A program made the translations under genes and the position numbers. Below the pieces are notes generated by a model. It was not told the DNA's origin, did not search any database, and was given only the letters and a program-made list of their open reading frames with translations. Positions 4,150-61,430 of a DNA stretch of 64,000 bases are shown here, piece after piece (the first letter of the stretch is position 1; the number at the start of each line of letters is the position of its first letter). The stretch comes from Nereocystis luetkeana (Eukaryota; Sar; Phaeophyceae; Laminariales; Laminariaceae): contig JARUPZ010000017.1 in assembly GCA_031213475.1 (NCBI GenBank), positions 6,092,167-6,156,166 of the forward strand. The letters run 5' to 3'.

Positions 4150-4226
4150 CTCCGGTCATACAACTACGGCCATGCATGATAATGAGTGCCTCCCCTCCTC
4201 CTCCTCTCCCCCCCCCCCCCCCAACG
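4150..4226 (+). repeat. Poly-C-tailed dispersed repeat, 3' fragment
   Basis: GGTCATACAACTACGGCCAT followed by GCATGATAATGAG and a C/T-rich tail ending in a run of C near 4207-4222. This is the fifth copy in this intron set and lies about 100 bp before the acceptor of the next exon. Confidence 0.6.
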
Positions 4227-4328
4227 CAACCTCCTCTCCCACGCTCCCTCTGCCGTATGTCCGTATATCGGTATGTAATATGTTACTTCAAATGCTTATA
4301 CATGCGTGTCTGTTTGTGTGTGTGTCAG

Positions 4329-8519: not shown

Positions 8520-8710
8520 CAATGTACCTACAGGATGTGTTCGGTAAGGTATGCCGGTACCCGGGGTATTTTTGGTGGGCTTACCGAAGTCACCGAAGTG
8601 TTGTGATACCGATATCGTGATTCGTACCGAGTCTTGCCGGGAGTGTTCGGTAGGTTTTCGAGGCCGTACCGAGCCTTGCCGGGAGTGTTCGGTAGGGTAG
8701 TTAACGAACA
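8520..8710. repeat. Short tandem duplication (GTTCGGTA block)
   Basis: GCCGGGAGTGTTCGGTAGG occurs twice, about 50 bp apart (near 8636 and 8677), with related TGTTCGGTAAGG at about 8537. It reads as a degenerate tandem repeat. No gene is apparent between here and the SINE at 9846. That interval also holds a duplicated GAAGGGTCTTGGCCCAC (near 9287 and 9309) and a CAG-rich patch at 9411-9440. Confidence 0.6.
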
Positions 8711-22100: not shown

Positions 22101-22836
22101 TACGTTTCAGTTCGGCGTCCTTGGTACAATCAGTTGGAGCATACGCAACGACGAAATTGACTGCCTCGCATTTGCCAGCCAGCTCAAAGCGCATAGACAT
22201 TGGCCGCTCGTCAACGAACTGATGAGTATACATAGACTTACTCCACAACGATTCCTTGACAACTAGGCCTACTCCGTACAGCCCTTGCCTGGTGGCTGTT
22301 GTTTCCTGTCCTGAACAGAAAACACGATACCCTGCCGCACGGAACGTCGTGCTGCCGGACTTCCGAGTTTCCTGCAGGCCAATGAAGTCACAGCCGAGTT
22401 GCCGTCCCTTCGCCAGTACACGCTCGTCATGTCCGTACACGTTCTTCCCCTTTACAGCCAGGGTGCGCACATTGTAGGTCGCTACCGTCACAAGTGCCTC
22501 CTTTTGTCTCTTACGAGCCTCGCGTGCTGCTTTCTTTGCCAGCCGACGTGAGGCTCGTCCCCGCCTCCTTGTTTTCTTCTTTTGTTTATTTTTCTTCTCT
22601 ATGGCGAAAGTGGCTCTCCGTTTCGTAGCCCGGTACGCGCCTTGTTTTCCGTTGGCTGGGTGCAGCCGTCCCAACCCACGCCGACAATCCCATCCTTCCT
22701 GTCGTGCATGCATACCCACGCTGTGGCCAGCCTCTCCACTCCACCGGCTGCCCACGTAGCGCTCTCTGCTGTGGTGATGTACCCGTCCCGCCTGAGGGAT
22801 GAACTCCTCGGCGTGGGGGTTAAGAAGAATAAACAT
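19106..22836 (-). pseudogene. LINE (non-LTR retrotransposon) with endonuclease and reverse transcriptase
   Basis: A near full-length non-LTR retrotransposon on the minus strand. After a basic N-terminal region (KKNKQKKKTRRRGR) comes an AP-type endonuclease from about residue 118: TYNVRTL, QETR, VVAYAPTD, LMDANARTG, RIDYIL and SDHNILY are all present. The reverse transcriptase follows, with [36 protein letters not shown] and the catalytic YADDAGIVS, then a C-terminal [12 protein letters not shown] segment and a long polar tail. Two lesions are visible: an in-frame TGA near 20848-20850 (NVW then stop, just before the RT fingers) and a frameshift near 19840. Otherwise the frame is open for 1,200 codons, so decay is recent. 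No poly-A tail or target duplication was identified. The LINE clade cannot be assigned by eye. Confidence 0.92.
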
Positions 22837-23081
22837 CACCACCACCCCACGCGGTCCTTAAAGCGAGCAGGCCACCAGCAGGACCGCGCAAGGTTCCCTA
22901 CCTACCTAATCCGAAGCTCGATGTTCGTGTGACTATCGCTAGACCACTGCAGGTCCTGGCGGACTTCCTCGGCCCACCCCAAGGACGAGGCAGGCCGAAG
23001 CAGGTAGTGGTACGCGCAGTCGGTGGAGTGCAGACAAGAGACTATGGCCAAGGTCTATTTGTTACCATTATTCGACACTTA

Positions 23082-28045: not shown

Positions 28046-30375
28046 TCATGACGATGATGGCCATAACCAGGCTTCAGTCTGTTGGGCATACCGCTTCCCC
28101 CCCCCCCCCCCGCCATTCCCCCTCGTCCCCCTTTCGCCCCCCTCCTCTTCCCTGCCATTCTGCGCACTCGCGTTGGCGTCAACGGCTGTGGTCGTTGTTG
28201 CAGCTATTCTATGCCGTTCTGCCGATGCCTCCTTCTCATCTGTATGCAATTCTGCCTCGCGCCACCCTTCGAGCTTGATGCCGAACTCCTTGAGGTCCTC
28301 CTCAAGTTACCTCATCCAGTCCCACTCCTGTCCTCCGGAGTAACCCTTACCCCCAACCATCTCCCCAAACATCACCCTCTTCGGCAGACGCTCCTCTCCC
28401 ATGCGTGTCACAAAGCCCGCAGACAAGAGCCTACGTCTGCGTACCGTCGTCTCAACGCTTTCAGATTTTTTCCTGAGAAGCGCGCTAGCATAGGATAGAA
28501 GGTGGTCTTCGCGCTTTCGTTTTCGCCACCCGATGCATCGGAGGAGCATCTTGTGGTGGACCTCCCGTAGCCTACCGTAATCAGTCTTGCTCGGGCTCCA
28601 CGTAACGTAACCGTAGAGCAACGTTTCGATCACCTCGGCTCTCAGCATTCGCACCTTCAGGCGTAGGAGCACACCCGGGCGGTCATAAATTTCCACCTTA
28701 TACCGTCCGAAGCATGCCCATGTCCTCTGGAGTCGACGCGTTACCTCGGCACTTCTGCCCGTCCAATCTGCGCTGATAGCCCCGCCCAGATACACAAACT
28801 CGGTCGTTTGTTTGTACACTTGGCCGGCGGCGGTGACGGTGAACGGCACGTTCCCCCCATCTTTCGTTTGCAGACACATTATCTCCGTCTTGGCCTCCGA
28901 GACCGTCAGGCCGAAAGCGGCACATGCAGACACGATCACCGTCATCATCCTCTCCAGGCCGCTGGGTGATCTCGATACTATGCCTGCATCGTCAGCATAG
29001 AGCATAGCCCACAGTGTCTGGGCCTCTTTATCATTCCCCTGTCCGTCGGCGTGCCCGACCCGTGCCTTCCCCCTCTTCTTTTTCTTCTTCCCCTGCTTTT
29101 GTTGGAGTTGCACCAAGCTGTCCGTGATGGCTTTATCAGCAGCGAAACGTTTCTCCGCCACACGCAGCACCGCTGTAAAAAACATGTTGAACAACAATGG
29201 CGCGAGCACACACCCTTGCCGTAGGCCCTGTTTCACGTCGAACATATCTGAGCACTCGCCGTCATCCAGCCGCACGCATGCTCGCATGCCGTCGTGGAAT
29301 TGGCGGATAACTGTGAGCCTTCTAGGTGGCACCTCAAAGCGAGCCAAGACAGCCCACAGGAGGGTTCGGTCGACGGAGTCATAGGCTTTGGTGAGGTCGA
29401 CAAAGCACATGAACAGCGGAGTGTCCTTCTTCCTTGCCAATTCCTGCAAGCGTCGAACCACGAACATCATGTCGACCGTCGATCGTTCGGGCCTAAAGCC
29501 ACACTGCTCCTCTGGCAGGATGCCTTCCCGTTCTCAATAGTCGCTGAATCGGCGCGCGATGACTTTGAGGAGTACTTTGCCGGCATGCGCGACAAGGGAA
29601 ATGCCACGATAGTTACCACACTCCGTCCTGTCTTTCTTCTTGTGCAGCACCTTAATCGTTGCATCCTTCCATTGCTGCGGCACGACCCCTCCCCTCCACA
29701 CAGCGACGATAATCTCGTAGAAGCTTCCCAAGGTGTCCGAGTCTCCGTCGTCGGCCAGGACCTTCAGAAGTTCAGCTGGGAGACCATCAGGCCCAACCGC
29801 CTTGCGGTTCGCCATCGCCCTGATCGCGTCTTCCACCTCGTATCTAGACGGGACGTTGTCCAGCGGTCTGCACGAGGGCCAGACCTTGAGCTCATCGACG
29901 ATAGTCGGGTCGAGGGTCGATGACTTGGTGTTTAGCAGCTTATGGAACCACCTTACCCATCGTTCCCGGATGAGGCCTATGTCTCGTAGTAATCTACCTT
30001 CCTCGTCCCTGATGTACTGCGAATGGAAAGTCCTCTTTCCTTCCACATTCATCCCCTTAAGGTGCTTGTAGAACCCAAACTGATCGCCTTCTTGGATACG
30101 CCTTTCGAGTTGACGGACGTATTCCTCGAAGAACTTCTGCACTCTGTCCGTCCTCGCACGTTTGAGCTGTTTAGTGGCAATCTTCACAGCTTTTCGCAGA
30201 TTTTTGTCTTCCGGGTTACCACGTAGTTGCGTTCTCGCATTTTCCTTCTCCTGCCATCGTGAGTGCACCTCTGCTTTTACCTCTTCGGGTGTACACCAGC
30301 CCAGCGGCCCTTGTTTTCGACTGGTATGAGATGCTAGTTTAGCAGCAGTCGACAGCACGGTCTCCAGGTGTACAG
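28046..30375 (-). pseudogene. 5'-truncated LINE, reverse transcriptase portion
   Basis: A second LINE of the same broad type as that at 19106, read on the minus strand. The endonuclease is missing; homology begins near 30375 ([17 protein letters not shown]). The reverse transcriptase holds [41 protein letters not shown] and the catalytic YADDAGIVS, followed by [19 protein letters not shown] lysine-rich insert ([15 protein letters not shown]) sits in front of the YADD block and is absent from the first LINE. Two in-frame stops are visible, a TGA near 29534 after RRFSDY and a TAA at 28307-28309 after WDWMR; reading otherwise stays open to a TGA at 28046-28048. Incomplete reverse transcription explains the 5' truncation. 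The two LINEs differ enough in sequence to be separate families. Confidence 0.9.
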
Positions 30376-31730
30376 CAGTAGGTGTTCATGCCGGGCCGGC
30401 CCTTCCGGGGGGGATATCTGCAAGCATAAACTACAGGCATGTAGCAGTTTCCACAGCGAAGCGAGGGTACTGTCTGTTGTACAGTACTTCACAATTCGCA
30501 GAAATGAAAACAATTGTTTTGCAAGCTATACGAGTAATACGTACCGCTTTTGTATGAAGCGAAAGGCTCCAAGAACGTGACAGTCCTGTAAAAGGTATCC
30601 CCGAAACTTGAAATGTGAACAGTGAACAGCAGCTATTCCTGCAAATTGTTTCAGTACTTACGAATCATGATTGACGGCTAGCTGGAATCTAGCGAATGCC
30701 TACCGAAGGGCCTAGCGACCGACCGCGCCAGACGAGTTCCTACAGCAGTAATTTTCAAGGTCAAATTCCAAAATCAGGTATACCTGATCCGTTTGAGCCA
30801 AAATCAGGTACATACTAAAACCAAGTCAAGAACGCGTGCCACAAGTGGTATTCTATCGATGGAAATCCTTTTAGAAAAGAATGCGCCTGAAGCATTAAGC
30901 GTGCCGCATGACCTCCAAAATCTGAATGGCCTTGTTTTCTTCAGGGTGTACGTACCACGAGCTCCACTTGGGCCTGCAGAGAGTCACTATCGATAGGCTT
31001 CGTTTGTTTCGCCACGGCGGGGGCGCCAAGAGTATTTACTCCGCCCCTCCCCCCCCCCGGTGACAGGTTTATAGCTTCGATTAATAGACCGTCCTCGCGG
31101 AATCGCCTGCTCGGCACGAAAACATCTTCTCGTGCCAAGCCTGAGACCACCCCGGGCGGTGCAGACGAAATGCCGTCTGACCATGGTGCTGTATATAGAC
31201 TGTTGTGACCATAGGATACAACAGAGTACAAATCACAACAACTAAAAGCTGAAGCATATCGCACACCCCAAAGATGAAAAAGTGAAACTAGCGTACGCAC
31301 TTATCATGTATAAATGCTTACTTTTACGTACGACGCACGACTACAGAGTTTGCACGTAAATACAGAATAATTTCAACCGAGGGAGGGCAGACGTATGTAT
31401 ACCGAGAGAAAAAACAGTGTACTTATGGCCTCTCTGATTGGTTCAAAGTTGGCCAAAATCAGTTGAAAGCTAGACAGAGTAGAAAAAGTCAGGTGTATCT
31501 TGACCTTTTCGAGACAAAATCAGTTACGATGTCAGCCTGGCCAAAAGCAGGGCTCCTGGGGTGTGTTTTGTACTTGTTTTTAGCATGTAACTGAATTTGG
31601 CCGAAAAGTAGCCAGGTATACCTGATTTTGGCTAATAAAACGCTTTTCCAATATCAAGTATACCAGTGTTCTTATATATTATTTTTTTCGAATATCATAC
31701 CCTGGTATATGCATAATATGATACTGCTGC
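30376..31730. other. No gene recognised
   Basis: AATCAGGTATACCTGAT occurs at about 30774 with related CAGGTATACCTGATTTTGGC near 31612, suggesting a degenerate palindromic repeat spread through 30770-31670. A run of C lies at 31051-31058. No exon or RNA gene is supported. Confidence 0.4.
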
Positions 31731-36425: not shown

Positions 36426-37185
36426 AGTGTGACGCCTACATTGGCTCTGAAAGGGATAACGATTGATACTGTATCGGGAAGTTGCGGCACTCGTTCATGC
36501 AGGGCTGGGTAAGTATCTAATGCGCGGTTGCTCGTCGTGGTGCGGTGTTGGGAAAAAGTGTGCGTCTGGCTTTTTAATATATTGCGGTCGTATGGCGGTA
36601 AATATCTACCGAGGAAACTCCCGATATGTTTTCCGTGAACGCTCTAGCGACCAAACAAATGTCAAGTTCGGTAGTATGAACCATCTAGAGCTACACATCA
36701 GTGTTAGCGCGCTATAGTACCAGTAGGTTCACGGCCTGCTTTATAGTTCTGACACCGGCGTTTATCACCGCGTTTCCAAGCAGTAGCGTATGGTGTAGTC
36801 GTCATCGGTTTGATATCATGGTATCATTTTTTCCCTTCTGGAGTGCTAAGAGTGTGAATTCCCTCGGTCTCCTAACTCGCTTTTGGTGGTCTTCTTAGGA
36901 AATGCCAGGAGAGAACACCAACAATCTTCCCACATGTGAAGTGAGAATGCTTGAGCCTGGCACAGTCTTAGGTTTTCTGAAGTGGTGTCGCGCAATATAG
37001 CAACTATACAGCGGCATACAGGTTGGTGCGAAAACTCATATCGGTAAGACCCTTATACGCTCTGTCAACGCCTGTTCCGCGAACGACAGGTGTGCCAGTC
37101 CAAAAGCTTGTGGTTGTGTTCGGCTTCATCTCCCGGGCTGTCGGAGCCGCAGGACGGCGTTTTGCCGCACTAGTCTGTGGCGAAA

Positions 37186-40100
37186 ATGGGGCGGCTCTGC
37201 AAGGACAAATGCGAAGCTCAGGCAACGCACAACTTCAAGGGAAGCAAGCTCGCGGCGTATTGCAAGATACATGCTCAGGACGCCATGGTGGAAGTCCGGC
37301 ACAAGCGGTGTTCAAATGACCCCTGCAAGAAGGACGCGAGCCACAACCTCGAGGGAAGAAAGGAGCCGACGTACTGCAAACAGCATGCGAAAAACGGTAT
37401 GGTGGACGTCCGCAGCAAGGGGTGTTTCCACGACTCCTGTATGACTTCACCTAGCTTTAACTTCGAGGGAAAGAAGCCTGCGTTGTACTGCAAGAACCAT
37501 GCCGAGGACGGCATGGTAGACGTCCTGAGCAAGCGGTGTATACACGACCAATGCACAAAGGGACCGAGCCACAATTTTGAGGGAAGCAAAAGGCCGGCGT
37601 ATTGCAAACAACATGCTGAGTATGGCATGGTGGATGTCCGCAGCAAGCGGTGTTTACACGACTCCTGCACGAAGATACCGAAATTTACCTTCGAAGGAGG
37701 CAAGAAGCCGGCGTACTGTAAACAGCATGCGGGTGACGGCATGGTGGACGTCCGCAGCAAGCGATGTTTACACCAATCCTGCATGGCGGGCCCGAGCCGT
37801 AACTTCGAGGGAAGAAAGGTGGCGGTGTACTGCAAACAACATGCTGATGATGGTATGGTGGACGTCCGCAGCAGGCGATGTTTACACGAATCCTGTACGT
37901 CGTTACCGAGCCATAACTTCGAAGGAAGAAAGCCGGCTGCGTACTGCAAACAACATGCTGATGACGGCATGGTGAACGTTCGCAACAATCGGTGTTCGCA
38001 CGACTCCTGCAAGACGGCGCCAAGCTTCAACTTCGAGGGGAAAAAACCTGCCGCGTACTGCAAGCTACACGCCGAGAAGGGCATGGTACACGTCCGCAGC
38101 CAGCGGTGTTCAAGCTACTCCTGCACGAAAACCCCAAATTTCAATTTCGACGGCACCAAAAAAGCAATGTACTGCAAACAGCATGCTGAGGACGGTATGG
38201 TGGACGTCCGTAATAAGCGGTGTTTACACGACTCCTGCACGACGTCACCGAGCTATAACTTCGACGGGAGAAAACAGGCGTTGTATTGCAAGCAACACGC
38301 TAAGGACGGCATGGTGCAGGTCCGCGGCCGGCGATGTGCACGTGATTCCTGCAAGAGAGTGCCGTTGTTCAGCGTTGACGGTGTGAAGACACCGTTGTAC
38401 TGCAAGCAGCATGCTAATGACGGCATGGTAAACATTGTCAGCAAACGGTGCTTACACGATTCTTGCACGATAGCACCATCTTTCAATTTTGAGGGAATCA
38501 AGCCGGCGATGTACTGCACGCGGCATGCTAAGGACGGCATGGTAGACGTCGTGAGCAAGCGATGTTTACTCGACTCCTGCATGACTTCCCCGAGCTATAA
38601 CTTCGAGGGAAACAAGTCGGCAGCGTACTGCAAGCAACACGCTGAGGACGGGATGGTGCTCGTCCGTAGCAGGCGGTGTTCACACGACTCTTGTTCGAAA
38701 CAACCGAGCCATAACTTCGAGGGAAGGAAGCCGGCGGTGTACTGCAAGCAACATGCTGAGCAGGGCATGGTGAGGATCTACAGCAGGCGCTGCTCACGAG
38801 TTTCCTGCGCGAGGATACCACGCTATAACTTCGAGGGCAGTAGGCCGGCGCTGTACTGCAAGCAACACGCTAAAGACGGCATGGTGAACGTCAGCAGCAA
38901 ACGTTGCTCACATGAATCATGTATGAAGGGACCGAGGTATAGTTTCGAAGGAACAAAGGCGGCATACTGCAAACAACATTCTGAGGTTGGCATGGTGGAC
39001 GTCGGCAACCATTTGTGCTTACGTGAATCCTGTGTGGCGGCGCCGAGGTTCAACTTGGAGGGAATCAGGCCTGCGGTGTACTGCAAGAAGCATGCTGATG
39101 ACGGCATGGTGGACATTTACAACGTACTGGTACGATGTTTACAGATCTCCTGCACGACGTCACCGAGCTTCAATTTCGAGGGGAAGAAGCCGGCATATTG
39201 CAAGCAACATGCCAAGGACGGCATGGTGAACGTCCATGACAAGCGTTGCTTACATGTTTCCTGCAGGGAGCCACCAAGGTTTAATGTCGAGGGCAACAAG
39301 AAGCCGGCCTACTGCAAGGAACACGCCGGAGCCGGCATGGTGGACGTATGCGCAACACGTTACTCACATGATCCCTGTGTGATGCGAGCGAGGTTGAACT
39401 ATAAAGGATCTGCGGGTGCAGTGTACTGCGAGAAGCATGCTGAGGATGACATGGTGGACGTCCTCAAGTCGGTGTGTTTACACTACACCTGCATGGAGAT
39501 ACCGAACCACAACGTCGAGGGAAGCAAGTCGATGGCGTACTGCAAGCAGCATGCTGAAGACGGCATGGTGTGCACCCGGACGACCTGCTGCTCACACGAC
39601 TCCTGCTCGAAGACACCCTGCTTTAATTTTCAGGGGAAGAAGCCGGCATACTGCAAGCGACATGCTGAGGTCGGCATGGTGGACGTCGTAAATAAACGGT
39701 GCTTACATGACTACTGCACGAAACGACCGAGTCACAATTTTGAGGGAAGCAAGTCAGCGGCGTGCTGCAACCAAAATGCTCTGGAAGGCATGGCAGGCGT
39801 CCACAGCAAGCGGTGTTTACACGACTCGTGGTCGACGAAAGGGTCGAGCTATAACTTCGGAGGAAGGACTGAAGCGTACTGCAATCTGCATCCTGAGGAC
39901 GGAATGATTAACGTCTGCGCCAGGTGCTGTTTGGAGGCATCGCGCACGATTGTTGGGACCGCTCCGCGCTCACCAACCGATGATGTGCCCATAGTACGCG
40001 TTCCAATGAAGAGGGAGATTTTGGACGGGCCATTGACGGGCGTGGGCGTCAAAGCGCCGTGTGAGGCGGCAGGTCACTTGAAACGGTCGAGGTCGGGACT

Positions 40101-40320
40101 CGAAGGGAAGCAGTCTACCCACCGCCTCGATGAGGCCCCTGTCCAGGACGTGTTCGGGCACGCTGCTGATGTACAGATGGCTCGCACCGAGTGTTTCCCA
40201 TATCGCCGCTCTAAAAGATGGCGCCTCAACGATAGGAACCGCGGCGGCGGCGGCAGCGACGGCGAATCGCCCGTCAAAAGGACCCGTCACCGGCTATACC
40301 GCAGACCGTTGTCCCCATAG
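37186..40320 (+). CDS. EsV-1-7 cysteine-repeat protein, 24 repeats
   Basis: An uninterrupted 1,044-codon frame. It encodes 24 repeats of about 38 residues with the pattern C-x4-C-x16-C-x2-H-x12, for example RCLHDSC ... NFEG ... YCKQHAEDGMVDV. This is the EsV-1-7 domain, first named from a phaeovirus gene and found in the brown-algal developmental regulator IMMEDIATE UPRIGHT. The paired Cys and Cys/His residues suggest zinc binding, but the biochemical role is not established. Repeats 1-19, 21 and 22 keep all four ligands; repeat 20 has Tyr for the first Cys, repeat 23 loses the His, and repeat 24 has Trp for the second Cys. A basic tail of roughly 130 residues (RRSKRWR, KRTRHR) could direct nuclear import. 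An in-frame TAG at 37171-37173 supports the ATG at 37186. No introns or promoter elements were identified. Confidence 0.92.
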   Translation: MGRLCKDKCEAQATHNFKGSKLAAYCKIHAQDAMVEVRHKRCSNDPCKKDASHNLEGRKEPTYCKQHAKNGMVDVRSKGCFHDSCMTSPSFNFEGKKPALYCKNHAEDGMVDVLSKRCIHDQCTKGPSHNFEGSKRPAYCKQHAEYGMVDVRSKRCLHDSCTKIPKFTFEGGKKPAYCKQHAGDGMVDVRSKRCLHQSCMAGPSRNFEGRKVAVYCKQHADDGMVDVRSRRCLHESCTSLPSHNFEGRKPAAYCKQHADDGMVNVRNNRCSHDSCKTAPSFNFEGKKPAAYCKLHAEKGMVHVRSQRCSSYSCTKTPNFNFDGTKKAMYCKQHAEDGMVDVRNKRCLHDSCTTSPSYNFDGRKQALYCKQHAKDGMVQVRGRRCARDSCKRVPLFSVDGVKTPLYCKQHANDGMVNIVSKRCLHDSCTIAPSFNFEGIKPAMYCTRHAKDGMVDVVSKRCLLDSCMTSPSYNFEGNKSAAYCKQHAEDGMVLVRSRRCSHDSCSKQPSHNFEGRKPAVYCKQHAEQGMVRIYSRRCSRVSCARIPRYNFEGSRPALYCKQHAKDGMVNVSSKRCSHESCMKGPRYSFEGTKAAYCKQHSEVGMVDVGNHLCLRESCVAAPRFNLEGIRPAVYCKKHADDGMVDIYNVLVRCLQISCTTSPSFNFEGKKPAYCKQHAKDGMVNVHDKRCLHVSCREPPRFNVEGNKKPAYCKEHAGAGMVDVCATRYSHDPCVMRARLNYKGSAGAVYCEKHAEDDMVDVLKSVCLHYTCMEIPNHNVEGSKSMAYCKQHAEDGMVCTRTTCCSHDSCSKTPCFNFQGKKPAYCKRHAEVGMVDVVNKRCLHDYCTKRPSHNFEGSKSAACCNQNALEGMAGVHSKRCLHDSWSTKGSSYNFGGRTEAYCNLHPEDGMINVCARCCLEASRTIVGTAPRSPTDDVPIVRVPMKREILDGPLTGVGVKAPCEAAGHLKRSRSGLEGKQSTHRLDEAPVQDVFGHAADVQMARTECFPYRRSKRWRLNDRNRGGGGSDGESPVKRTRHRLYRRPLSP

Positions 40321-40392: not shown

Positions 40393-40679
40393 TATTGGCG
40401 TCGCCGGTGGCTTAGTAGTTGGTCCGCGTGTCTACTAAGACCAATTTCGTGGGTCCACATCTTACCGATTGCATACTCGGAAAATAGTTTTTCTTGCATA
40501 AACATTGACCAGAGGAAAGCGCGAAAACGTGCGTTAGCTACTTTCGATGACAATCGACGAACAGCGGAAATGCTGAACCCTATGCGCGACAAAAAATGAA
40601 GGCACGTACCGGGGGGAGAAGGGACGACACCTGTGACCACGGCTTGTCCAAAAGAAGACCGCTGAGGGTCAAACCTCCT
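40393..40679 (+). mobile_element. tRNA-derived SINE, copy 2
   Basis: A box A match, TGGCTTAGTAG, lies at 40408-40418 and a box B-like GGTCCACATCT at 40452-40462, about the distance found in tRNA genes. The body (TTTTTCTTGCATAAA, AATGCTGAACCC, GCGCGACAAAAAAT, GGCACGTACCGGGGGG, ACCACGGCTTGTCCA) matches copy 1 along its length. Box B has drifted from the consensus more than in copy 1. The 3' end adjoins a MITE inserted at 40681. Confidence 0.82.
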
Positions 40680-40680
40680 A

Positions 40681-40785
40681 TTACGGGGGACCATAGTTAA
40701 TAGGACCTATGGTATACATAAAAACCTATATATTTAACCATTTTCACCAACAATATTTGGTCCTAATAATTATGGGCCCCCGTAA
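40681..40785. mobile_element. 105-bp MITE with TA duplication, copy 1
   Basis: Ends TTACGGGGGACCATAGTTAA and its reverse complement, flanked by TA on both sides. Two other copies lie at 48771-48878 and 58767-58871. TA duplications and long inverted ends point to a Tc1/mariner-type transposase in trans. It sits exactly at the 3' end of the SINE. Confidence 0.88.
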
Positions 40786-48762: not shown

Positions 48763-48770
48763 TGGTGCTA

Positions 48771-48878
48771 TTACGGGGGGCCATAGTTAACAGGACCAAA
48801 TATTGTTGGTAAAAAGGGTTAAACATAAAATAGGTTTTAATGTGTACCATAGGTCCTGTTAACTATGGTCCCCCGTAA
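48771..48878. mobile_element. 105-bp MITE family, copy 2
   Basis: A 108-bp element with ends TTACGGGGGGCCATAGTTAA and the complementary AACTATGGTCCCCCGTAA, flanked by TA on both sides. The inverted ends extend over AACAGGACC and its complement, leaving only a short central loop. Confidence 0.9.
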
Positions 48879-49059
48879 TAATAGGACCCTTCTTCTCCAT
48901 GCGATGTGGTGCCATGGGGTTCGTAGGGTAGTCTTCGTAGGATGTGCTTTGACGGGGTGGTTTCGCTTCACACTATTTTTTTTCTACACTAACTCTGCTG
49001 CCAGGGAATTACTGCAGTTCGGTATGAATAAGCATGCTACCCTCGGGAATTCTCAGCCT

Positions 49060-49165
49060 GTAAAACTGAGTCTCAGCTGGGGCAACTGCAAATCTGTCTG
49101 TCTGTCTGCCTGTCGGCCTGTCTGTCTGTCTGTCGGTCTGTTTGTCTGTCTGTCTGTCCGTCCAC
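49060..49165 (+). repeat. Dispersed repeat with long TCTG tail
   Basis: GAGTCTCAGCTGGGGCAACT then a TCTG/TCGG tetranucleotide run of about 80 bp. It shares its head with 41405-41475. The repeated head plus simple tail recalls a SINE or LINE 3' end, which is inference. Confidence 0.65.
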
Positions 49166-49245
49166 GATTCCTTCGATTTTCGACCGCGGGCGGTTGTTGA
49201 TATGTTATCGACGGTAGTTCCGCATTACCGTACTCTGATATGATA

Positions 49246-49532
49246 GGGTAGTTTTGTCCGTAGACGAGGTAACGGCCTCCGCAAACGAAGTAACGGACAA
49301 AGCAGGGTTTATTGGTAGAGAGAATGTGGCATGTCTGTATCGGGAACTGGGATAGAGCAAGTTTGGTTGGAAGGGAAGGCCTCGCACGCAGTCCTTCGAA
49401 GCAAAGCACCGAGCGTGGGTCAGCATCCCCACGCCGGGCACGAGCAAGCACGAGGTCCTGTGACGAGCACGGGCAGACGTGAGGTAATCGCTGGTATGTC
49501 GATCCAAGCCAGGAATTAGTGCCTTATTTTCC
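49246..49532 (+). repeat. Split direct repeat unit A1
   Basis: Begins GGGTAGTTTTGTCCGTAGAC and ends TTAGTGCCTTATTTTCC. It differs from A2 only at one position (TTGGTTGG here, TTGGTTCG in A2). It is the expected 5' end of the element. Confidence 0.9.
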
Positions 49533-50253
49533 CTTTCCTCCCGTCTCTACTCCGGCCCGGCTGGGACCACGTACTGAGGGCGGGGGCGAGCTGACGCGAC
49601 TTTGGTGATCGGGGGGGATTTGCTGCGAGGACTGGATTCAGCGAGTTCCAAAAAAAAACAAAACACACGGTATGTCATGTGTAGTGATTGTCGACTGACG
49701 ATAAAGTGCTATCTAACGATAGGCGAAGAAACGATGAGTGGGAGCGGCGACCGCGTCCCAGTAACGGGAGGCGGCCCGTTTAGAGAAGAAAGAACCCGTA
49801 CGGGTTGGGGCACCCGCTCACACGAGAGCACGAGCATAGACGTGGCTGTACGGGTGGGAAGCAGCGCGACGCGGGTCTTTGTCTCGAGGTGCATACATGC
49901 ACATCGAAAAGACGCTATGATACATTCCTGAAGGCGGCAGAGGGAGGACGCGTGGTGGAGACAACGGGCGCGCCAGTGTACGAGAGAGAGCAAAAAAAAA
50001 AAACGAAAAAAAACGAAAAAAAACGCATACTGATACCTGTTACCTGGTACGTATTGATCTATGCGCACATCCCACAACATACACCCCAGACCACCGGATC
50101 ACCCAGGCAGGTAGGTTTGGGGAGGTCCCAGGACGCTTGTATACTGCTGTGTACAGTCAGCCCCCTTTTTCACGCGACCGAGAAGGCAAGCACAAGTTCA
50201 TGATACTCATGGAAACATTTCGAAGTAATGGCCACTACTGTTGGTAGTATAAT

Positions 50254-52185
50254 TTGAGTCGGTGGAGACAGCAGTACACTGCCGTATGCGATGGAAACAT
50301 GCCGTCGCAAGACCGACACGGTGTTGTTTGCTGTGGAGACGCAGCCTCGTTACTAGCTCTGGGCATGATACTCATGGAACCATGCCGAACTATAGGCCGC
50401 TATAAAAATAATGAGACTAATAATAATGATAATACTCCGGAGTAGAAAATAACACGCAGCACAGCAGCACAGACCGGTCGGGGTTTTCATAAACGTGATA
50501 ACACAGGAATGCGATGGGCACTGTATAATCAGCCCGGGGTACAAGAAAAGGGACGAAAAGGAGAGCAAATTGTTTCGTATACGCGTGAACGGGGGTTTCC
50601 ATAAACGTGATAAAACATGAATGCGAGGGGCACTGTATAATCAGCCCCGGGGTACAAGGAAATGGACGAAAACGAGACGAAATGCTACATGTACCAAATA
50701 TGATGTGGCTGTAGACTAAATTGAGTCGGTGCACAATGGAGATGGTACCGCTACTGTGGGCGACAATTAAGAAGAAAACAAAACATGTTGACGCACGACC
50801 GACACGGGGTTGCTTGCTGTGTGTGGAGACACAGTCCGGCTGCAAGCTCTGGGCCTGATACTCTTGGAAATATGACGAAGTATCGGCCGCTATAATAATT
50901 TGAGTTGGTGCGCTGGGGAGACAGTTCTGCTGTGTGCGATGAAAACATATCGACGCACGACCGACACGGTGTTGCTTGCGGTGGAGACACAGTGCAGTTA
51001 CAAGCTCTGGGGCTGAGACCCATGGGTTCATGCAAGGTACCGGCCGCTCTAATAATAATAATTATTCATGTCATCATATTAATAGTAATTTGAGTCGGCG
51101 TGCTGTGGAGACAGTACTGCTGTGTGCGATGAAAACATATCGACGCACGACCGACACGGTGTTGCTTGCTGTGGAGACACAGTCTGGTTACAAGCTCTGG
51201 GGCTAAGACCCATGGACTTGGGAATATGACGAAATATCGGCCGCTATAATAATTTGAGTTGGTGCGCTGTGGAGACAGTTCCGCTGTGTGCGATGAAAAG
51301 ATATCGACGCACGACCGACACGGCGTTGCTTGCTGTGGAGACGCAGTCTGGTTACAAGCTCTGGGGCTGAGACCCAGGGAAACAGGCAAGGTACTGGCGG
51401 CTCTAATAATAATAATTATTGATATCATCATACCTGGTAGTAATTTGAGTCGGCGTGCTGTGGAGACACTACTGCTGTGTGCGATGAAAACATGTTGACG
51501 CACGACCGACACGGGGTTGTTTACTGCTGTGGAGACACGGTCTTGTTACAAGCGCTGGGCCTGATACTCTTGGAAACATTACGAAGTATTGGCCGCTAAA
51601 ATATAGTTTGGGTCGGTGCGCGGTGGAGACAGTACTGCTGTGTGCGATGCAAACATATCGACGCACGACCGACCCGGTGTTGTTTGCAGTGGAAACACAG
51701 TTTGTTTTTACAATCGCTGGGCATGATACTCATGGAAACATGCCGGAGTATGGACTGCTATAGTAATAATTAGAGTCGGAGCGCTGTGGAGACAGAACTG
51801 CCGTGTGCGATGATGGAAACATGTGGACGCACGACCGACACGGGGTTGTTGGCTGTGGAGACACAGTCCTGGTACAAGTTCTTGGCCTGAGACTCATGAA
51901 AACATGCAAGGTATTGGCCGCGATAAAAATAATGATTCAAGTCGGGGCGCTGTGGAGCAAGAAAACTGCTGCTGTGCGATGAAAACATGTCGATGCACGA
52001 CCGACACGGTGTTGTTGGCTGTGGAGACACAGTCCTGTTACAAATTCTTGGCCTGAGACTCGTGGAAACATGGAAGGTATTGACCGCTATAATGCTGTGT
52101 GCGAGTACAACATATCGACGCACGACCGACACGGTGTTGGCCGGCTGTGGCGACAGCAAGGGGCCGGCTCGCTGTGGAGACAGGA
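50254..52185 (+). repeat. Tandem array with GCTGTGGAGACA pairs and higher-order periodicity
   Basis: About ten units. Most carry two GCTGTGGAGACA-like 12-mers 66 or 69 bp apart, separated by GATGAAAACATATCGACGCA and CGACCGACACGG. First-motif positions 50912, 51102, 51266, 51457, 51620, 51783 and 51949 give steps of 190, 164, 191, 163, 163 and 166 bp. The 190-bp units contain an extra TAATAATAATTATT linker, so 50912-51619 forms two 354-bp dimers. The first units (50254-50890) are irregular. It lies inside the A1-B2 element. No protein is inferred. Confidence 0.85.
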
Positions 52186-53160
52186 AGGGCTTACCCAGGT
52201 GGAAACACACGAGGAAAATATTCCGGCACGACCACATGGGTAGGCAAGAAGAGAGTAAAAAAAAACGAAGAAATAAAGAGAAAAGAAGGACGAGCAGGAA
52301 GGGCTTGTAGCCTAGATTCACGGATCCGTAAAAAAAAAAAAAAAACCCGTTGGGTACGTGCCGGATTCCGTATTATACTGGGTACGTGCGTTCAATTTCC
52401 AAGAAATAGCAAAAAAGTACCCGGCACCGGTAGCACCGCAGAGAGAAATACAAAATCGCGGCACCCGACGAGTAGTCGGGTGCCCCACGTCACGTTAAAC
52501 TAGGGTACCGAGATACGGCTCACTGCGACCGCGGGAAGGGCACCCTACATCTATAAACCGAAACCAACGGCTACACACGTTGGGGCCGGTGCGCGACTGT
52601 TTGGGGGGGGGAACCCCCAACCAAGAATAAAATAAATATTCAAAAAAAAACAATAATAATAATAATAATAGTGAAAGGAAAACTCTATATCTTCACGCAG
52701 CTCGAATAATGGGGATAACCGAGCGAATTACATCGACACTGATCGAGAAAGACATTCTTATACGCAACGCCTGCGAGGTAAATTCCCTGCTGCTGTTGGC
52801 CCTGTTTCCAGAATTTGTGTTGGGCAGGGGGAGTATCCCTTGCCACGGGACGCACGGCCCATGCCGTTCGGCGTGAGTCGTGCGCCCCGTCTGATAAGCA
52901 CGTTTTGGACAGGGCGGCGGCCTACGCAGAAGCAATTATCTCAAATAAGGAGTTGCGAGCAGAGGGGGGGGGGGGGGGGGGGGGGGGCACAGCGCTGCGA
53001 CGCCCCCCCACCTTCTCCACGTTGGTTTGTTGGTCGGGATGCTTGGCTTGACGCCCATGTGTTCTGAATTATCCGCCCAGGGGCTGGGCGGGAGAAAATA
53101 CACCCGCGTGTGTGTTGCAAAGGGGGCGCGGGAGGGGGGGGGTGTATATACATTTTTCAC
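52186..53160. other. Interior of the split-repeat element; no gene recognised
   Basis: Includes a perfect 10-bp-stem hairpin GGCACCCGAC..GTCGGGTGCC near 52463-52487, an AAT microsatellite at about 52649-52670 and a run of 24 G at 52964-52987. No reverse-transcriptase motif was found on either strand. Confidence 0.5.
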
Positions 53161-53164
53161 CATC

Positions 53165-53790
53165 AGGTACGACCATCAATGAGCTCCCCGTTGTGGAGAC
53201 AACGGGGAGGGAGCAGGTCTGCTGTGGAGACAGCGAGCACAACTGCCCATATTTGGTTTTGTCGATTACCCGATGTAAACACTCCGATGTATGACCATCA
53301 ACGAGTTCCCCGCTGTGGAGACAGCTGGGGGGGGGGCGGTACGCTGTGGAGACAGCGGGCAGAACTGCCCACATTTGGTTTGGGCGAATACTCGACGAAA
53401 ACATATCGATGTAAACCAACAGTGAGTTCCCCAGCTGTGGAGACAGCGGGGGGGGGGCAGGTCCGCTGTGGAGACAGCGGGCACAACTGCCCGAGGGTGA
53501 CGTTGTCCCCCGCATGCTCGACCTTGCCAGGAAGGCATGAAAACATATAAATGCACGACCGCCAAGGAGTTGCCCGCTGTGGAGACAATGGGGGGGCAGG
53601 CTCGCTGTGGAGACGGCGGGCACAACCGCTCGAGGGGGTGCCATCCCTCTCCGTCATTGATTTTTGTTATTTTTATAAGTTTTTTTTTAGGGGGAGTACA
53701 CGATGAAAACACATCGGTGTACGACCGCCGATGAGTTGCCTGCTGTGGAGACAGTGGGGGACGGGCTCGCTGCCAAGATTGGGGGGCAGT
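53165..53790 (+). repeat. Second tandem array with closely paired GCTGTGGAGACA motifs
   Basis: Five units with two 12-mers each about 28-31 bp apart: first motifs at about 53190, 53312, 53434, 53576 and 53742, second at 53221, 53343, 53465 and 53604. The first three steps are 122, 122 and 142 bp. Units share CGAAAACATAT or similar and a TGACCATCAACGAGTTCCCC block, so this array is a diverged relative of that at 50254-52185. Runs of G follow the first motif of each unit. Confidence 0.8.
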
Positions 53791-54884
53791 ACTGCTCGAG
53801 GGGGAGCTACGACGGGGCCACGTCTCAGCTCATATTTCAACTTTTCGTTGCATAAGTTTGTTATCTTGTCTCCGCACCTACGTTGCCCAGATGAGGGCAC
53901 GCCCACGGTGGGAATGCACGAGGCAGAGGTGGGGACACCCACCCTTACCATTGCCCACCGTCACACATGCGGCATTGACCCCCCAACAAACACGAGGGGG
54001 ACATAGTTCCGCACTGACGATAGCCGGGTGTTCTGCGAACGTTGGCGGTCGATGTACTGCACGAACATTTCCAACCTGCCACATGGTACAACTCATGATT
54101 CGGGCTTCCACGATCTACGGTTACCCATTTTATATTTAGCTACTTTATCCTTCGTTTCTGGCTTATTTACTCTGGAAACACGAGAAACGTGCAGATGAAC
54201 GGTTCCGGCGCGGAAATCAGATCGGTGTGCTGATAAAGTGGCTACCGCTAAGGCTGTTCACTTGACATCCTGATGGTTCGTGATATTCCGACAGCCCTTG
54301 GCCGCTGCTAATTCCGGGGGGGCGTGATGCACCCAAGGTGTGCTTACTTTTCCGATGGGGGAGGGCATTCATATACTGGTGCCGGTGATTTGGTGTGCCG
54401 TGCTTCTAATCAGTCTAGTTCCCCCTTACAGGACGGTCCACGTGGATACAGATTGGTATATCTGGCGAATATTTTTGTCGATGACAGACTGCACCGTTGT
54501 ACAGACAAATATCGGGTCGTCGCGTCACACAGCACGCACACTGGGCAAACCTCAAGTCTCTATGGGGGGCAGAGCTAGACGTTGGAAGATCAACCCTTGC
54601 GACTCCACACCGTTGTAAATTCATCGGTGACCCCCCCCCCCCCCCCCCCCCCCCCGTCGCGCCTGCACACTCCGAGCGCGTGTCTCTGGCGTCGTTGGCA
54701 GCGCTCATACACGGGATACAAGCTGGCCGGCCACTGTTTCGCGTGGAGAGAGCACGCGCCTGCCGATTAGGACGCAAAGGTTTCTGCAGCAGCTACTTCC
54801 GCGCTCGGATAGGGTTTGCTTGGCACTGGCCCACGTGACGGTCGGAATGCCACGATGCGTTCGACCACCGGCGTTATTCGGAGC
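53791..54884. other. Interior of the split-repeat element; no gene recognised
   Basis: A run of 25 C lies at 54631-54655. At 54822-54880 a block (CCCACGTGACGGTCGGAATG) duplicates part of the recombinase coding sequence at 55238-55290, which suggests an internal rearrangement. Confidence 0.5.
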
Positions 54885-55992
54885 AGCGCCTGGTGGAGGC
54901 GAGGGCGGATCTTTGTACCGACATCTTGGCCTCCAGTACGTTGGGGGTTCAGTTGCGAGCTCGAATAGGCGTACGTACGAGTCTGGTCGCCGATCTTGGA
55001 ATCCGTTTCGCAGGTTGATGGGTTGTTAGGAGTTCTCGGCATCGAGTGATTCGAAGAGTTTTGAAGGATGGGCGTTGATCGAGTTGGTATCGTCGTGTCG
55101 TGCGTCGGAAGGTAACCTGGCGAATATGATTCCCGGTAAATACGCGGAGGTGCAGTATTCCCATCAATTGAGGGTAGGAGTGGAGCTGCTGGTCACGGCT
55201 CCTGTTGTCCAGTGTGCGCTCAGGAGTATGGCACGGGCCCACGTGACGGCAGGAACGCCACGCCGCGTCCGCTTACCGGTGCCGTTCGGTGGAAACCCTC
55301 ACTCCCACGTGGGGCCCGGAGGGGAAAGTGTTGTGGTTGTGTCTGTGTCCGAGTTACTTCTTGATGACGCGTTCGGACAAAATGTTCACCGCGGATTCGG
55401 GGGCGGTGCACCCTTTGCACTGCCCGACGCGAGGTGACATGGCGTTTTTCGCCGAGGGCACACAGTTAGGAGAGAGGCGTAGGCAACAACCGGACAGGGT
55501 AGAGGCGCGGTTTAAGGGGCATAAGGGGGATCAGGAACAGGCTGGCAGTGTGCGCATGCGGACTCGAAGTGAGGTTCGCGGGCCAAGGTCGTCCTTTAGG
55601 GCAGACGGCGGGACCGTTGCCCTTATGTTGGAGTTGAGGTCATGCTTCCCTGGTTTTCTCGACCATGCCCCCCTGTCCTCGTATCAATGTGGCAAGGCCA
55701 TACGAGTGGTAAGGTATGGCCGTGCCCTTAGAGCACTCAAGGAGGTGGTGGCGAAGTCAGGTCGGAATGCCGATGAGTTCGCCTCGCACTCGTTGAGCAT
55801 AGGAGCCACGACCACGCTCGCGGCGGGGGGGAAGACATAGCGGAACGAGTTATCCAGAGAGAAGGGAGGCGGAGGTCTGACGCGTACGAGGTGTACACTT
55901 GTAATATCATAAAAGATTCCACGAGAGTGTCACGTAAGCTGGCGAGGGCAAAGGTGGAAGGGAGGGAAGGAACGGCGGGGGGTAAGAAATAA
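54885..55992 (+). pseudogene. Tyrosine recombinase pseudogene of the split-repeat element
   Basis: A core-binding-like segment (VASSNRRTYESGRRSWNPFR) at about 54945-55025 ends in a TAG or shift near 55027. The frame continues with YSHQLRVGVELLVTAPVVQC and ARAHVTAGTPRRVRLPV, shifts near 55320, and reads LMTRSDKMF with the likely box I arginine. Then come HAPLSSYQCGKAIRVVRYGR and EFASHSLSIGATTTLAAGG. The histidine is present, but the box II arginine (HxxR) is serine. A frameshift in a G run at 55824-55831 precedes AERVIQREGRRRSDAYEVYT, which carries the candidate tyrosine nucleophile, and a TAA at 55990-55992. The enzyme would cut and rejoin DNA through a tyrosine bond. With three or more lesions and a lost arginine it is inactive. 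Confidence 0.8.
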
Positions 55993-56032
55993 CTAAGAGT
56001 ACGTCAAACAGTAGCCTCACATCACCTCGGGG

Positions 56033-56278
56033 TTGGAGGAGTCGAATGGTACCGTACCATTCGGAGGCTTGGTGATCCGAGACAACTGTAGGCCGTACTA
56101 GTTAGGAACCCGGCCGGTATAATAGGAGGGAGAGAGAGACGTAGAATTAGAGTGGTCGAGATATCCAGGGTATTGCAGGAAGCTGCGATACAGGTATCTG
56201 GCCGAGGGGAGGAACCTCTCTCTCTCCCACGACACAGGAAACGATAATGATAATGCAATTCGAAAGATATACAATAAA
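56033..56278 (+). repeat. Split direct repeat unit B1
   Basis: Begins TTGGAGGAGTCGAATGGTAC and ends GAAAGATATACAATAAA. Identical by eye to B2. It follows the recombinase stop by 40 bp and abuts A2 with no gap. Confidence 0.92.
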
Positions 56279-56565
56279 GGGTAGTTTTGTCCGTAGACGA
56301 GGTAACGGCCTCCGCAAACGAAGTAACGGACAAAGCAGGGTTTATTGGTAGAGAGAATGTGGCATGTCTGTATCGGGAACTGGGATAGAGCAAGTTTGGT
56401 TCGAAGGGAAGGCCTCGCACGCAGTCCTTCGAAGCAAAGCACCGAGCGTGGGTCAGCATCCCCACGCCGGGCACGAGCAAGCACGAGGTCCTGTGACGAG
56501 CACGGGCAGACGTGAGGTAATCGCTGGTATGTCGATCCAAGCCAGGAATTAGTGCCTTATTTTCC
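56279..56565 (+). repeat. Split direct repeat unit A2
   Basis: Same 287 bp as A1 with one substitution. It is followed by a 110-bp spacer (56566-56675) with a run of G before B2. Confidence 0.92.
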
Positions 56566-56675
56566 GCCGTCCCACCCCCCCTATTTTTTCTTTCGAAGGG
56601 GGGGGGGGGGAGGCACGAGTAGCCGGGGGTACAGAGGAAATGTCTTTCCTTCCGCTAGGGTTTACTTTAGTTAGA

Positions 56676-56921
56676 TTGGAGGAGTCGAATGGTACCGTAC
56701 CATTCGGAGGCTTGGTGATCCGAGACAACTGTAGGCCGTACTAGTTAGGAACCCGGCCGGTATAATAGGAGGGAGAGAGAGACGTAGAATTAGAGTGGTC
56801 GAGATATCCAGGGTATTGCAGGAAGCTGCGATACAGGTATCTGGCCGAGGGGAGGAACCTCTCTCTCTCCCACGACACAGGAAACGATAATGATAATGCA
56901 ATTCGAAAGATATACAATAAA
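56676..56921 (+). repeat. Split direct repeat unit B2
   Basis: Identical by eye to B1 over 246 bp; expected 3' terminus of the element. The next bases (CTACGG) differ from those after B1 (GGGTAG, the start of A2). Confidence 0.92.
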
Positions 56922-57297
56922 CTACGGATTATAAGTCACCGATACACGATCTATCTAGATTACATAGTGCTACTTTCCGATATCCACCATGTATGTAGCA
57001 GTGGGTCGAAAAATGGCCACAGCAGTCTTCTAAGCGGGAGACCGTCAACCATCGCCTCGATCGTACATATTTTCACACTTTCCGCGCATTCAAACCCAAA
57101 TATCACGCCAGCGTAATTAATGAAGTACAACACGCCACGGCAAGTTTAGGCGGCTTGTGTATCGAATCAATCATAGAAACTGTTCGTACTCCCCGTTTCG
57201 GCCAGAATACAGTACTGCACACTATCCTCCACTTAAATTGCATTATTTGTGGCACTGAGATATATATGGAGAAAAAACTTCAAAAATATAAAAATAT
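56922..57297. other. No gene recognised
   Basis: Right flank of the split-repeat element. No motif, repeat or exon was identified. Confidence 0.4.
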
Positions 57298-58766: not shown

Positions 58767-58871
58767 TTACGGGGGGCCATAGTTAACAGGACCAAATATT
58801 GTTAGTAAAAATGGTTAAACATATAGGTTTTTATGTATACCATAGGTCCTGTTAACTATGGTCCCCCGTGA
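58767..58871. mobile_element. 105-bp MITE family, copy 3
   Basis: Ends TTACGGGGGGCCATAGTTAA and its complement with one change (CCCCGTGA), flanked by TA at 58765-58766 and 58872-58873. Internally almost identical to copy 2. Confidence 0.9.
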
Positions 58872-60186
58872 TAGGAGTGTATGAGGTAGGGTATTGTGTT
58901 GGTCACCGTCGACTATATATAGTCGCGTTTGTTTGGGGGCGAACACAAGTTCTTCTTGTTGACGGCGGTGACGCATGAATTTATGTGCGCTCGGGGTCTG
59001 CGTGCTCCCTGTCGAGATGGACACCGAATAAATTTTGTTTTCGATCGAAACAAAAGGCGATACCAAGGAAGGGTTGTTCTGGAAAACAGAACCAGCCGAA
59101 CCGATATTTCATGCCGGTTTTCACCGCCTATCTGGCAACCGGTTGAAGCGTAAACAACCCATACCGTTTCAAACCGGGTTGATTTTCCATTGAGTAGCGC
59201 CTTGTGATGTACTCACAAATAGGTGCGTATTTGGTTAGGTTCGCAAGTATTGCGTCTTGTTGCGATGGATACCCACGGGTATTGATAAAGTAACAAAATG
59301 ATAAGAACATATGTTTTCAAGCACGACACAGACATTCAATTGGATCGAAACCATCACGAACAGGGTATCTGATTCTTACATTCCAAGCTCCTTAAGACAC
59401 ACAAATTCAACGCCACTGCAACGATCGTGGTGCGAGATGCGGCATGTTGGTGTAGCGTGTGCGCGGTTGTTCGGTGTGGGTAGGCCTCAGCCTTCCGGGC
59501 TCACCACAGGGATAGTCAAAATATTTTTTGTCAAGGCCCGTATTGAGGGAAATAAACACACCCAAGTATGGCCCGTTTTAAGGCCCATGCCCGCATGTCT
59601 TGGGGTAAACGTTTCCGGAGTTGGAGGGATTTGTTGTAGATTAAAACCCTGTGCTTGCATTATTTTCGGTGATAATCGTGCGCCCAAACATGGCACCTTC
59701 CAAGGGGACTCTCGAAAACAGGGAGAAGGTACCATTTTTTCAACGCACATGTATGTATGTCACGAAAGGAGAGGTGATTGCTTTGGAAAAGGTCCTTATG
59801 AATAGGGGGCGGTTGAGGTCTGTACGCCGTCCTCGCTAAGGGAGTTCCAGCTTAAAAACGCTGCGTTCGGCCATAAACTTCTCGATCTGGGCAGGGTTTC
59901 AGGTTTCAAACTGCTCTTCAGGCAACTCTCTTCGGATTAGGGGACTAGGGCCATTGTAATGGCAAGTCTCCAACGCTAGGCCCTACGTGTGGGTTGAAGG
60001 AGTGTCGTCCAACTTCGAATATCCGGCACGGTCGGTTTATGGGCGCACCTATTTTCAGGTTTGTCGTCATATTCCGGGCTGTCAGATAGGCACAATCGAC
60101 GTTGGATCAACCATACTTCATGATTTCACGTTTAGTATCGTTAACGTTTACGTTTTTCACTGCTTCAGTGCCTCAGGAACGTTTTA
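58872..60186. other. No gene recognised
   Basis: The part just before 60187 may belong to the retrotransposon whose integrase begins there, but no polyprotein motif (protease, reverse transcriptase or RNase H) could be found. An open frame at 59311-59805 has no known domain. Confidence 0.4.
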
Positions 60187-61430
60187 GTGTTGAACCAGTC
60201 TATTCCTATCTGGGGGTGCCCGCGCAGCATTCTCTCGGACAACGGCCTCCAGTTCTTCTGCTCCAAGATTTTGCGCGCCATATATCACCTTCTCGGGGTT
60301 CGAGAAATCGCCACCACCAGCTCCGACCACCCAAACGGCAACGGTGGGGTGGAACGTATAAACCACACGATATCCCAGATGCTGGCAATGGTCGACAACG
60401 AGTTCGAAACCAACTGGGATGCACAACCCCCTCATGACGAATTTGCGTACAACAATTTGGTCAGTGTCGCCACGGGTTTGGCTCCCACCGAGCTCCATAT
60501 ATATGGGTCGGCTGCCACGCCTCCCCCTCACGATTTTCGAGTGCTCTGGAGTCACCGGCCACCAGAGCTTGCCCCGCGACCATCCCTACAAAGTTCTCGA
60601 TGTTGGCCCCTGCTCCTCAGCGAACACCTCGGACGGGTCTCTTCTTGGGGCAAAGCTCCTGTATTTTGGATCTTCCTTCCGATATGCCCGGCGCTGATGC
60701 TCGCCGGCGCGTATCAGTTCAACGCTGAAAGCCCTGTCTGTGCCAACCCCCACGATCATCATGACGACATGCCGAAGTACGTGTCAGCGGGGTTGACGCG
60801 GTATGTGCTCAACAACGTCTCCAAGAAATCTCCCCCGTACAACGTCACCCAGGACGACGTTTGGACCCCTCATCAACCACTCGAAGCGGAAAATATTACC
60901 GGACATCAATCGGTGCGAGGTCGAGGTGGCGTCATCGCGGTGATGCATGAGACGCACTGCACATCACTCTCCCGCCCATCCTGAGAACGAGAAATGGACC
61001 TTCAGCTCTCTTGCCACGCGAAGTTTGCGCTACTGGGCCGGCACCCCGAACCAGCACCGCCGAAGAGAACCGCCTGTACCGCCGAATGAGAATCGGCGCG
61101 GCACAACGGGAGCTTTCTCGGAGTAACAACAAGCGGTTTCTGGCACCCGGCTACGGCTGCGTCTGGCACACCCACTGGCTCCGCCGATACTGCATCACCG
61201 AGCTTCCCAACGGGGCCCATGTTTAGTACAACGGCGACGACGGTTGGTGGTGGCTCGGGAAAATCAACGTGACTACGCCCACGGATGGAGTGTATTAGGT
61301 CAGAGTTTTTGGACGACCCGGGACAGTTCAAGCTTGCACTTTCTCCGGCGCGTTACACAACTTCGAGGAGAGCTGTACGAGGCTCTCGGTGTTGGCAAAC
61401 TGACTTGGCTAGGGCGTTTTGCGCGAGGGG
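60187..61430 (+). pseudogene. Ty3-type LTR retrotransposon integrase remnant
   Basis: The frame 60187-60984 holds an integrase core: ILSDNGLQFF with the second catalytic aspartate, SSDHPNGNGGVERINHTISQ with the catalytic glutamate, and EFAYNNLVSVATGLAPTELH, typical of Ty3 pol. The first aspartate block was not found upstream. A frame change or deletion near 60530-60600 removes the middle of the C-terminal region. Farther on come TRYVLNNVSKKSPPYNV and ENITGHQSVRGRGG. A shifted frame carries NRLYRRMRIGAAQRELSRSN near 61071-61130 and a VRFLDDPG segment near 61300. The integrase would insert retroelement DNA into the genome. No LTRs or other pol domains are visible, so this is a 5'-deleted, broken fragment. 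Confidence 0.8.

Follow-up and report, generated by a model that had tools for sequence, protein, structure and literature searches.

The window analyzed here is a 64,000-nucleotide (nt) stretch of the genome of the brown alga Nereocystis luetkeana (contig JARUPZ010000017.1, positions 6,092,167 to 6,156,166 of the forward strand), and it carries an element that we read as a derivative of a Ngaro-type tyrosine recombinase (YR) retrotransposon. The units of the element are ordered A1-interior-B1|A2-S-B2, each of them in direct orientation (Table 1), with identity at 246 of 246 bases between B1 and B2 and a single mismatch in 287 bases between A1 and A2; repeats of such length and identity are beyond chance. 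The A unit begins with GGGTAG and the B unit ends with AATAAA. An earlier interpretation made from the DNA letters alone (the sequence-only reading) had proposed these four units with the same coordinates, orientation and matches, and repeat finding confirmed them, delimiting the A pair as 49245-49532 and 56278-56565, that is, with one extra flanking base in common. The A1 and A2 units of the window copy also have in common one base that is absent from all other A starts listed, which fits the rebuilding of both ends from one template at each move; recent gene conversion would give the same picture.

Table 1. Coordinates of the window element and of its fuller relative L062 (L062 positions are those of its own stretch; RT, reverse transcriptase; RNase H, ribonuclease H)
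Feature	Position	Strand	Remarks
Putative non-autonomous YR retrotransposon, whole	49246-56921	+	7,676 bp; delimited by A/B repeats and empty sites
A1, left terminal unit	49246-49532	+	1 difference from A2 in 287
Leader	49533-53141	+	Stretches of homology with the L062 leader
First tandem array	50199-52139	+	~165-nt units with TGTGGAGACA core; counterparts in L062 1575-2878
Second array	53167-53767	+	122- and 166-nt spacing
1.74-kb segment in place of the relative's 3.54 kb of gag and RT-RNase H	53142-54879	+	
RT-RNase H remnant, last 65 residues	54821-55015	+	Overlaps YR start; 66% identity, E 1e-17
YR pseudogene	54880-55992	+	Two frame breaks, altered HxxR box
B1	56033-56278	+	Identical to B2; 97% to B units of L062
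A2	56279-56565	+	Abuts B1; like A1, 94% to both A units of L062
Spacer S, between A2 and B2	56566-56675	+	110 nt; first 57 nt align to L062
B2, right terminal unit	56676-56921	+	Ends AATAAA; right edge fixed by empty sites
L062 (contig C14), A1	831-1120		Leader has the same array-type units
L062 Gag-like frame	3561-5129		Weak CCCH-finger match
L062 RT-RNase H-like frame	5190-7304		
L062 YR frame	7058-8302		415-residue open frame
L062 B1	8350-8589		
L062 A2	8586-8875		
L062 B2	8934-9173		

Fuller relatives and the losses of the window copy

The recombinase pseudogene in the window is real. Of 423 candidates found with its open piece at 55247-55837, 89 are protein relatives at E<=1e-3, the one named relative being from Ectocarpus, and three protein relatives overall bear Ectocarpus or Choristocarpus names. 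In an alignment of 23 YR relatives the R, K, HxxR, W and Y positions stand out, a set that we take to be the tyrosine recombinase pattern, and Pfam Phage_integrase matches four of the 23 (best E 2.7e-7). Searched by sequence against the PDB, the YR fragment matched a single chain (E 0.61) and the YR profile had Cre as its best match (E 0.11); the predicted structure of the YR relative P0002 has a mean local confidence score (pLDDT) of 68.2, with residues 273-333 below 50.

A search of the genome with P0002 gave 129 matches, many of them stop-free, with the best 121 of 1,929 candidates scored, and the stretches around two stop-free rows, L062 and L069 (contig C5), contain the kind of fuller partner that the sequence-only reading had predicted, with corresponding A/B units and an RT-like frame. 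The two are 99.77% identical over 8,340 nt, and in L069 the open frames measure 493 residues (Gag-like), 744 (RT-RNase H) and 415 (YR). The terminal units of these relatives nearly match those of the window element, at 94% identity for A and 97% for B, as against 86.5% for the YR region, and the leaders align between window 49246-49738 and L062 835-1297 and between window 52714-53141 and L062 3207-3631. Domain profiles detect the relatives' proteins weakly: RVT_1 is found in the L062 RT frame at E 0.0014 and, at E<=0.1, in 12 of 20 aligned RT-RNase H proteins with that of L062 included (best 1.4e-4), Peptidase_A17 is matched by three of the 20 (best 8e-4), and Pfam finds no RNase H in any of the 20 at E<=0.1. 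Conserved positions in this alignment may represent RNase H, and we take its YVDD motif to be that of an RT. The RT-RNase H profile found as its best PDB match an unrelated transporter protein (E 0.063), and the YR frame of L062 itself has no Pfam match. Two frames elsewhere in the window served as a positive control for Pfam, with RVT_1 matches at 2.8e-27 and 1.9e-33. L062 and L069 are likely helpers that would supply enzymes to the window family.

Relative to the open 415-residue YR frame of L062, 14 nt are deleted near 55290 in the window copy and 2 nt are inserted near 55830. HxxS stands in place of its HxxR box, and tblastn with the L062 protein returns the recombinase in three pieces (residues 48-174, 180-369 and 358-415). 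The rest of the coding region is largely missing. Six-frame Pfam analysis of the window element gave no RT at E<=1, Pfam being weak even on the relative's RT, and tblastn with the L062 proteins is the stronger test; it recovered residues 641-705 of 705 alone for RT-RNase H and, for gag, a weak match of residues 86-108 to 54662-54730 (E 0.09). In the complete sister copy L061 the search yielded the same RT-RNase H residues 641-705, a weak gag piece and YR in two pieces. Judged by these alignments, the window family is an enzyme-less derivative, with most of gag and RT-RNase H gone and YR broken.

The alignment of the window element with L062 is interrupted between 53141 and 54880 (L062 positions 3631 and 7169). 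The sequence-only reading had tandem arrays replacing the gag/RT region, which is not supported: the main, first array (50.2-52.1 kb) has counterparts in L062 and lies within the leader of both elements, and thus did not replace coding sequence, and the second array (53.17-53.77 kb), without a blastn match in L062 at E 1e-3, alone occupies the position expected for gag.

A common break, solo units and exact empty sites

The family is numerous. The best 40 of 444 candidate places for the A unit and the best 40 of 389 for the B unit are all 99-100% identical to it, and 60 loci were examined, namely the best-scoring 30 of the 40 places for each unit. Ten of the 30 A loci lie in full-type copies (two of them being the window element itself) and 20 in solo A-S-B units. 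Twelve of these 20 have identical flanks and represent one insertion, and two further solos from B loci bring the independent solos to 11. The twelve loci in question (L009-L019 and L030, on 11 short contigs and one long) have one solo insertion and its flanks in common and are a duplicated segment. Occurrence of A and B apart in unrelated contexts, which would have told against the sequence-only reading, was found at none of the 60 loci, all being full-type copies or A-S-B units alone; in L023 and L024, two of the 11 independent solos, B is truncated or interrupted, as would be expected of remnants. A2 directly follows B1 in all 12 full-type copies in which B1 was seen (L061 included), and S is retained at 96-98% in most full and solo copies examined, being missing or cut in L023 and L051, the latter (contig C25) keeping the start of the spacer and then turning into unrelated sequence. 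An odd internal join is present in L004 (contig C24), where about 20 nt after A1 match the sequence that follows A2 and are succeeded by the array.

The break in the recombinase gene is common to these copies. Over 992 nt compared in 11 YR copies the length is constant except for a 1-nt gap in the copy on contig C3 and the loss of the first 364 nt in those on C24 and C30. The 14-nt deletion is present in 10 of 10 covering copies, nine by equal length with the window copy and L061 by direct alignment, and the 2-nt insertion together with HxxS occurs in 11 of 12, L061 having neither and still being broken by the deletion. The same break in copies at different sites indicates that the family multiplied after its recombinase was broken, with help in trans; this old, common break is the main evidence for such presumed help, which the sequence-only reading had also proposed. 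In the P0002 search, 26 rows, the window element among them, share with the examined copies an open-frame length of 221 or 249 residues, by which their membership was judged. Eight rows with this frame length lie on contig C22 at about 0.16-0.65 Mb, mostly 61-63 kb apart with one 117-kb gap, and may form a very large tandem repeat in which a single insertion was copied along. A second YR set (rows C39:691857 to C18:106417) comprises 24 rows at about 44-45% identity to the query, 22 of them stop-free, and likely represents another lineage.

The boundaries of the window element were assessed with a joined-flank query from which the element had been removed (83 nt left plus 140 nt right), searched against the whole genome. 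Among the best 40 of 96 candidates, one row is the right flank of the window site itself and the other 39 places span the join at 79-86% identity. Six of these empty sites were fetched and aligned, and all six read uninterrupted through the join, with no target duplication and no base lost at the edges, so the window element sits inside a copy of another repeat with exact edges. The analysis supports the recent movement claimed in the sequence-only reading. The interrupted sequence (49163-49245 plus 56922-57061) belongs to a repeat of which at least 39 further copies exist at 79-86% identity. When the joined flanks of 16 insertions were compared with sequence already retrieved, a spanning match was obtained in seven; the four of these inspected, all solos (L025, L026, L054 and L060), interrupt repeats whose other copies cross the join, with small gaps near the join in the L054 and L060 alignments. 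A short related repeat occurs in the window at 48764-48880, 58769-58874 and 40678-40783, and a copy of it elsewhere is interrupted by L026.

A target preference is seen on the left side. In 17 left flanks (five full copies, relative L062 and 11 solos), A occupies position -1 in 14 (P 7e-7) and position -2 in 13 (P 8e-6; both uncorrected). No comparable base bias adjoins the element in 23 right flanks, where the strongest departure is T at +8 in 12. The A-rich left flank and the AAA at the end of B fit a putative B|A circle junction that was joined to target DNA at matching A residues.

A derivative probably mobilized in trans, and rival readings

We consider it probable (about 0.88) that the window element is a non-autonomous derivative of a Ngaro-type YR retrotransposon, mobilized in trans. 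An ancestor would have been stripped of most of gag and RT-RNase H and have suffered a break of its recombinase gene; a fuller relative would presumably provide the RT that copies the RNA. B1|A2 may then serve as the template from which both ends are rebuilt, yielding a circle with a B|A junction that the relative's recombinase would join to A-rich target DNA without target duplication. This supposes that the relatives' proteins are functional and would act on the window family. The eleven independent solo A-S-B units and the A-rich target agree with such an element. Several points weigh against it. The whole case is one of sequence comparison, and the help attributed to L062 and L069 is suggested by their matching ends and open frames. 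Pfam detects RT in L062 below the curated cut-off and RNase H not at all. Nine of the 16 joined-flank comparisons gave no spanning match, that of the window copy being found by the whole-genome search alone; the left flanks of L062 and L069 end in AAC and CTA rather than AA; and young copies are over-represented among loci chosen as best-scoring.

The most serious alternative concerns the solo units, which might be self-moving small circles comparable to the SIRE units of trypanosomes rather than remnants. We think this unlikely, while noting that mean divergence is similar within solos (0.48%), within full copies (0.72%) and between the two (0.59%; nine of the 11 solos and 11 full copies), and that 11 solos stand against no interior-B unit running into flank among the 12 full-type copies with B1 seen, although B1 and B2 are closer to each other than A1 and A2. 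Recombination between A1 and A2 yields the same A-S-B product, as published for isolated AB repeats by way of suggestion (PMC8547959). The solos are also interleaved with full copies in the tree of the same sequences, its branches very short, rather than forming a separate burst. A bolder version, to which we give a distinctly smaller chance, would have two parasite tiers on one Ngaro family, a 7.7-kb gag/RT-less element and a mobile 0.64-kb A-S-B unit, each from a circle resolving at two B|A junctions; if true, it would have left its trace in the 11-to-0 predominance of A-S-B over interior-B units.

It is improbable, more so than either proposal for the solos, that the broken element moves as DNA, with the relative's recombinase excising and reinserting a circle in the manner of a Crypton, without reverse transcription, and copy number rising by other routes. 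A recombinase alone would suffice for clean insertion without duplication and for the A-rich junction, and some copies did arise by segmental duplication (the 12 identical-flank loci and the eight YR rows on C22), but the 26 YR rows of family frame length are spread over many contigs and A/B candidates are many. Moreover, A1 and A2 match within L062 and within the window copy yet are 6% apart between them, and an RT-like protein is encoded in the relative, whose ends are laid out in the same way. We found no point in favor of ordinary host DNA that underwent an independent local duplication at 56 kb; this reading can be dismissed, as related empty sites show one clean insertion and the multicopy structure and same-layout relatives also speak against it.

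Relation to known elements

The A1-[open reading frames]-B1A2B2 layout has been stated for Ngaro and YR elements (PMC8547959, PMC4157794), and its direct split repeats, a Ngaro feature, are present in the window element and its relatives, as the sequence-only attribution to a Ngaro/PAT-type layout had it. Two further Ngaro features are a tyrosine recombinase, broken in the window copy and open in L062 and L069, and the lack of target-site duplication usual in Ngaro elements, which held in six of six empty sites, with four solos inspected. The label Ngaro-type follows layout and gene content. Other assignments were considered and rejected. A PAT-like identity is not supported by the three L062 frames, which have no methyltransferase among their Pfam matches at E<=1, with Pfam weak on these proteins; that domain separates DIRS and PAT from Ngaro (PMC4157794). 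A DIRS1-like element is contradicted by direct A and B units without inverted termini, the sole inverted pairs involving G/C runs; a Crypton, by the RT-RNase H-like frame beside YR in L062 and L069. Among viral contigs, six stretches matched a pattern and none was a relative.

Several described systems resemble the window family in part. The Ngaro of Cafeteria burkhardae has the same layout and isolated AB repeats (PMC8547959). The window family shares with Ngaro the YR enzyme and, in L062 and L069, the Gag-like and RT-RNase H-like frames, and differs in several respects: in the window copy most of gag and RT-RNase H is missing and YR is broken, A2 and B2 are 110 nt apart, and the leader contains a long tandem array. 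SIRE, the A2-B2 region of VIPER in Trypanosoma cruzi, is likewise a short unit beside a full split-repeat YR element without target duplication, the latter reported as not seen for VIPER/TATE in PMC12278014 and the mobility of SIRE being left open in PMC6681497; unlike SIRE, where the A2-B2 stretch alone is involved, here the 7.7-kb gag/RT-less form has multiplied too. In Ectocarpus, giant DNA transposons with pseudogenized transposases (PMC12477816) invite the same argument, that a broken enzyme in a spreading family means help in trans, although they are not YR retrotransposons. Against the sequence-only supposition that no such element had been described in this lineage, 15 Ngaro and five PAT-like families are published for Ectocarpus (same source). 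We recognized no description of this very element in the literature searched, which excluded the supplementary transposable-element library of PMC12477816, where it or a relative could be listed. TOC1 of Chlamydomonas is an RT-less split-repeat element and, as here, pairs with a coding relative. TOC3 is a PAT element of algae (PMC4157794), and TOC1/TOC3 belong to the PAT type, a group defined with the methyltransferase domain, which was not seen in the L062 frames. The kind of element is thus already known; the present genome adds a well-resolved case that unites a likely helper, a broken derivative, solo units and empty sites.

Elsewhere in the window, minus-strand LINE-like (long interspersed nuclear element) sequences lie at 19828-22857 and 28310-30385, with RVT_1 in both and an endonuclease domain upstream in the first. 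An open frame at 60145-60981 is without a Pfam match and is, we presume, a retrotransposon integrase fragment. A 1,048-residue open frame at 37174-40317 carries 24 EsV-1-7 cysteine-rich repeats (Pfam PF19114, E 1.9e-267), a motif that is reported to have proliferated in brown algae (PMC12477816).

The mechanism of YR retrotransposons is poorly understood, and the genome analyzed here combines open-frame copies, an enzyme-less derivative, solos and exact empty sites. From this combination the sequences required in cis may be deduced, as the A and B arms are kept at 94-97% against 86.5% for the YR region, and so may the crossover position, which would lie in the A-run before GGG. The window family would thereby add a brown-algal case of a YR retroelement mobilized in trans.

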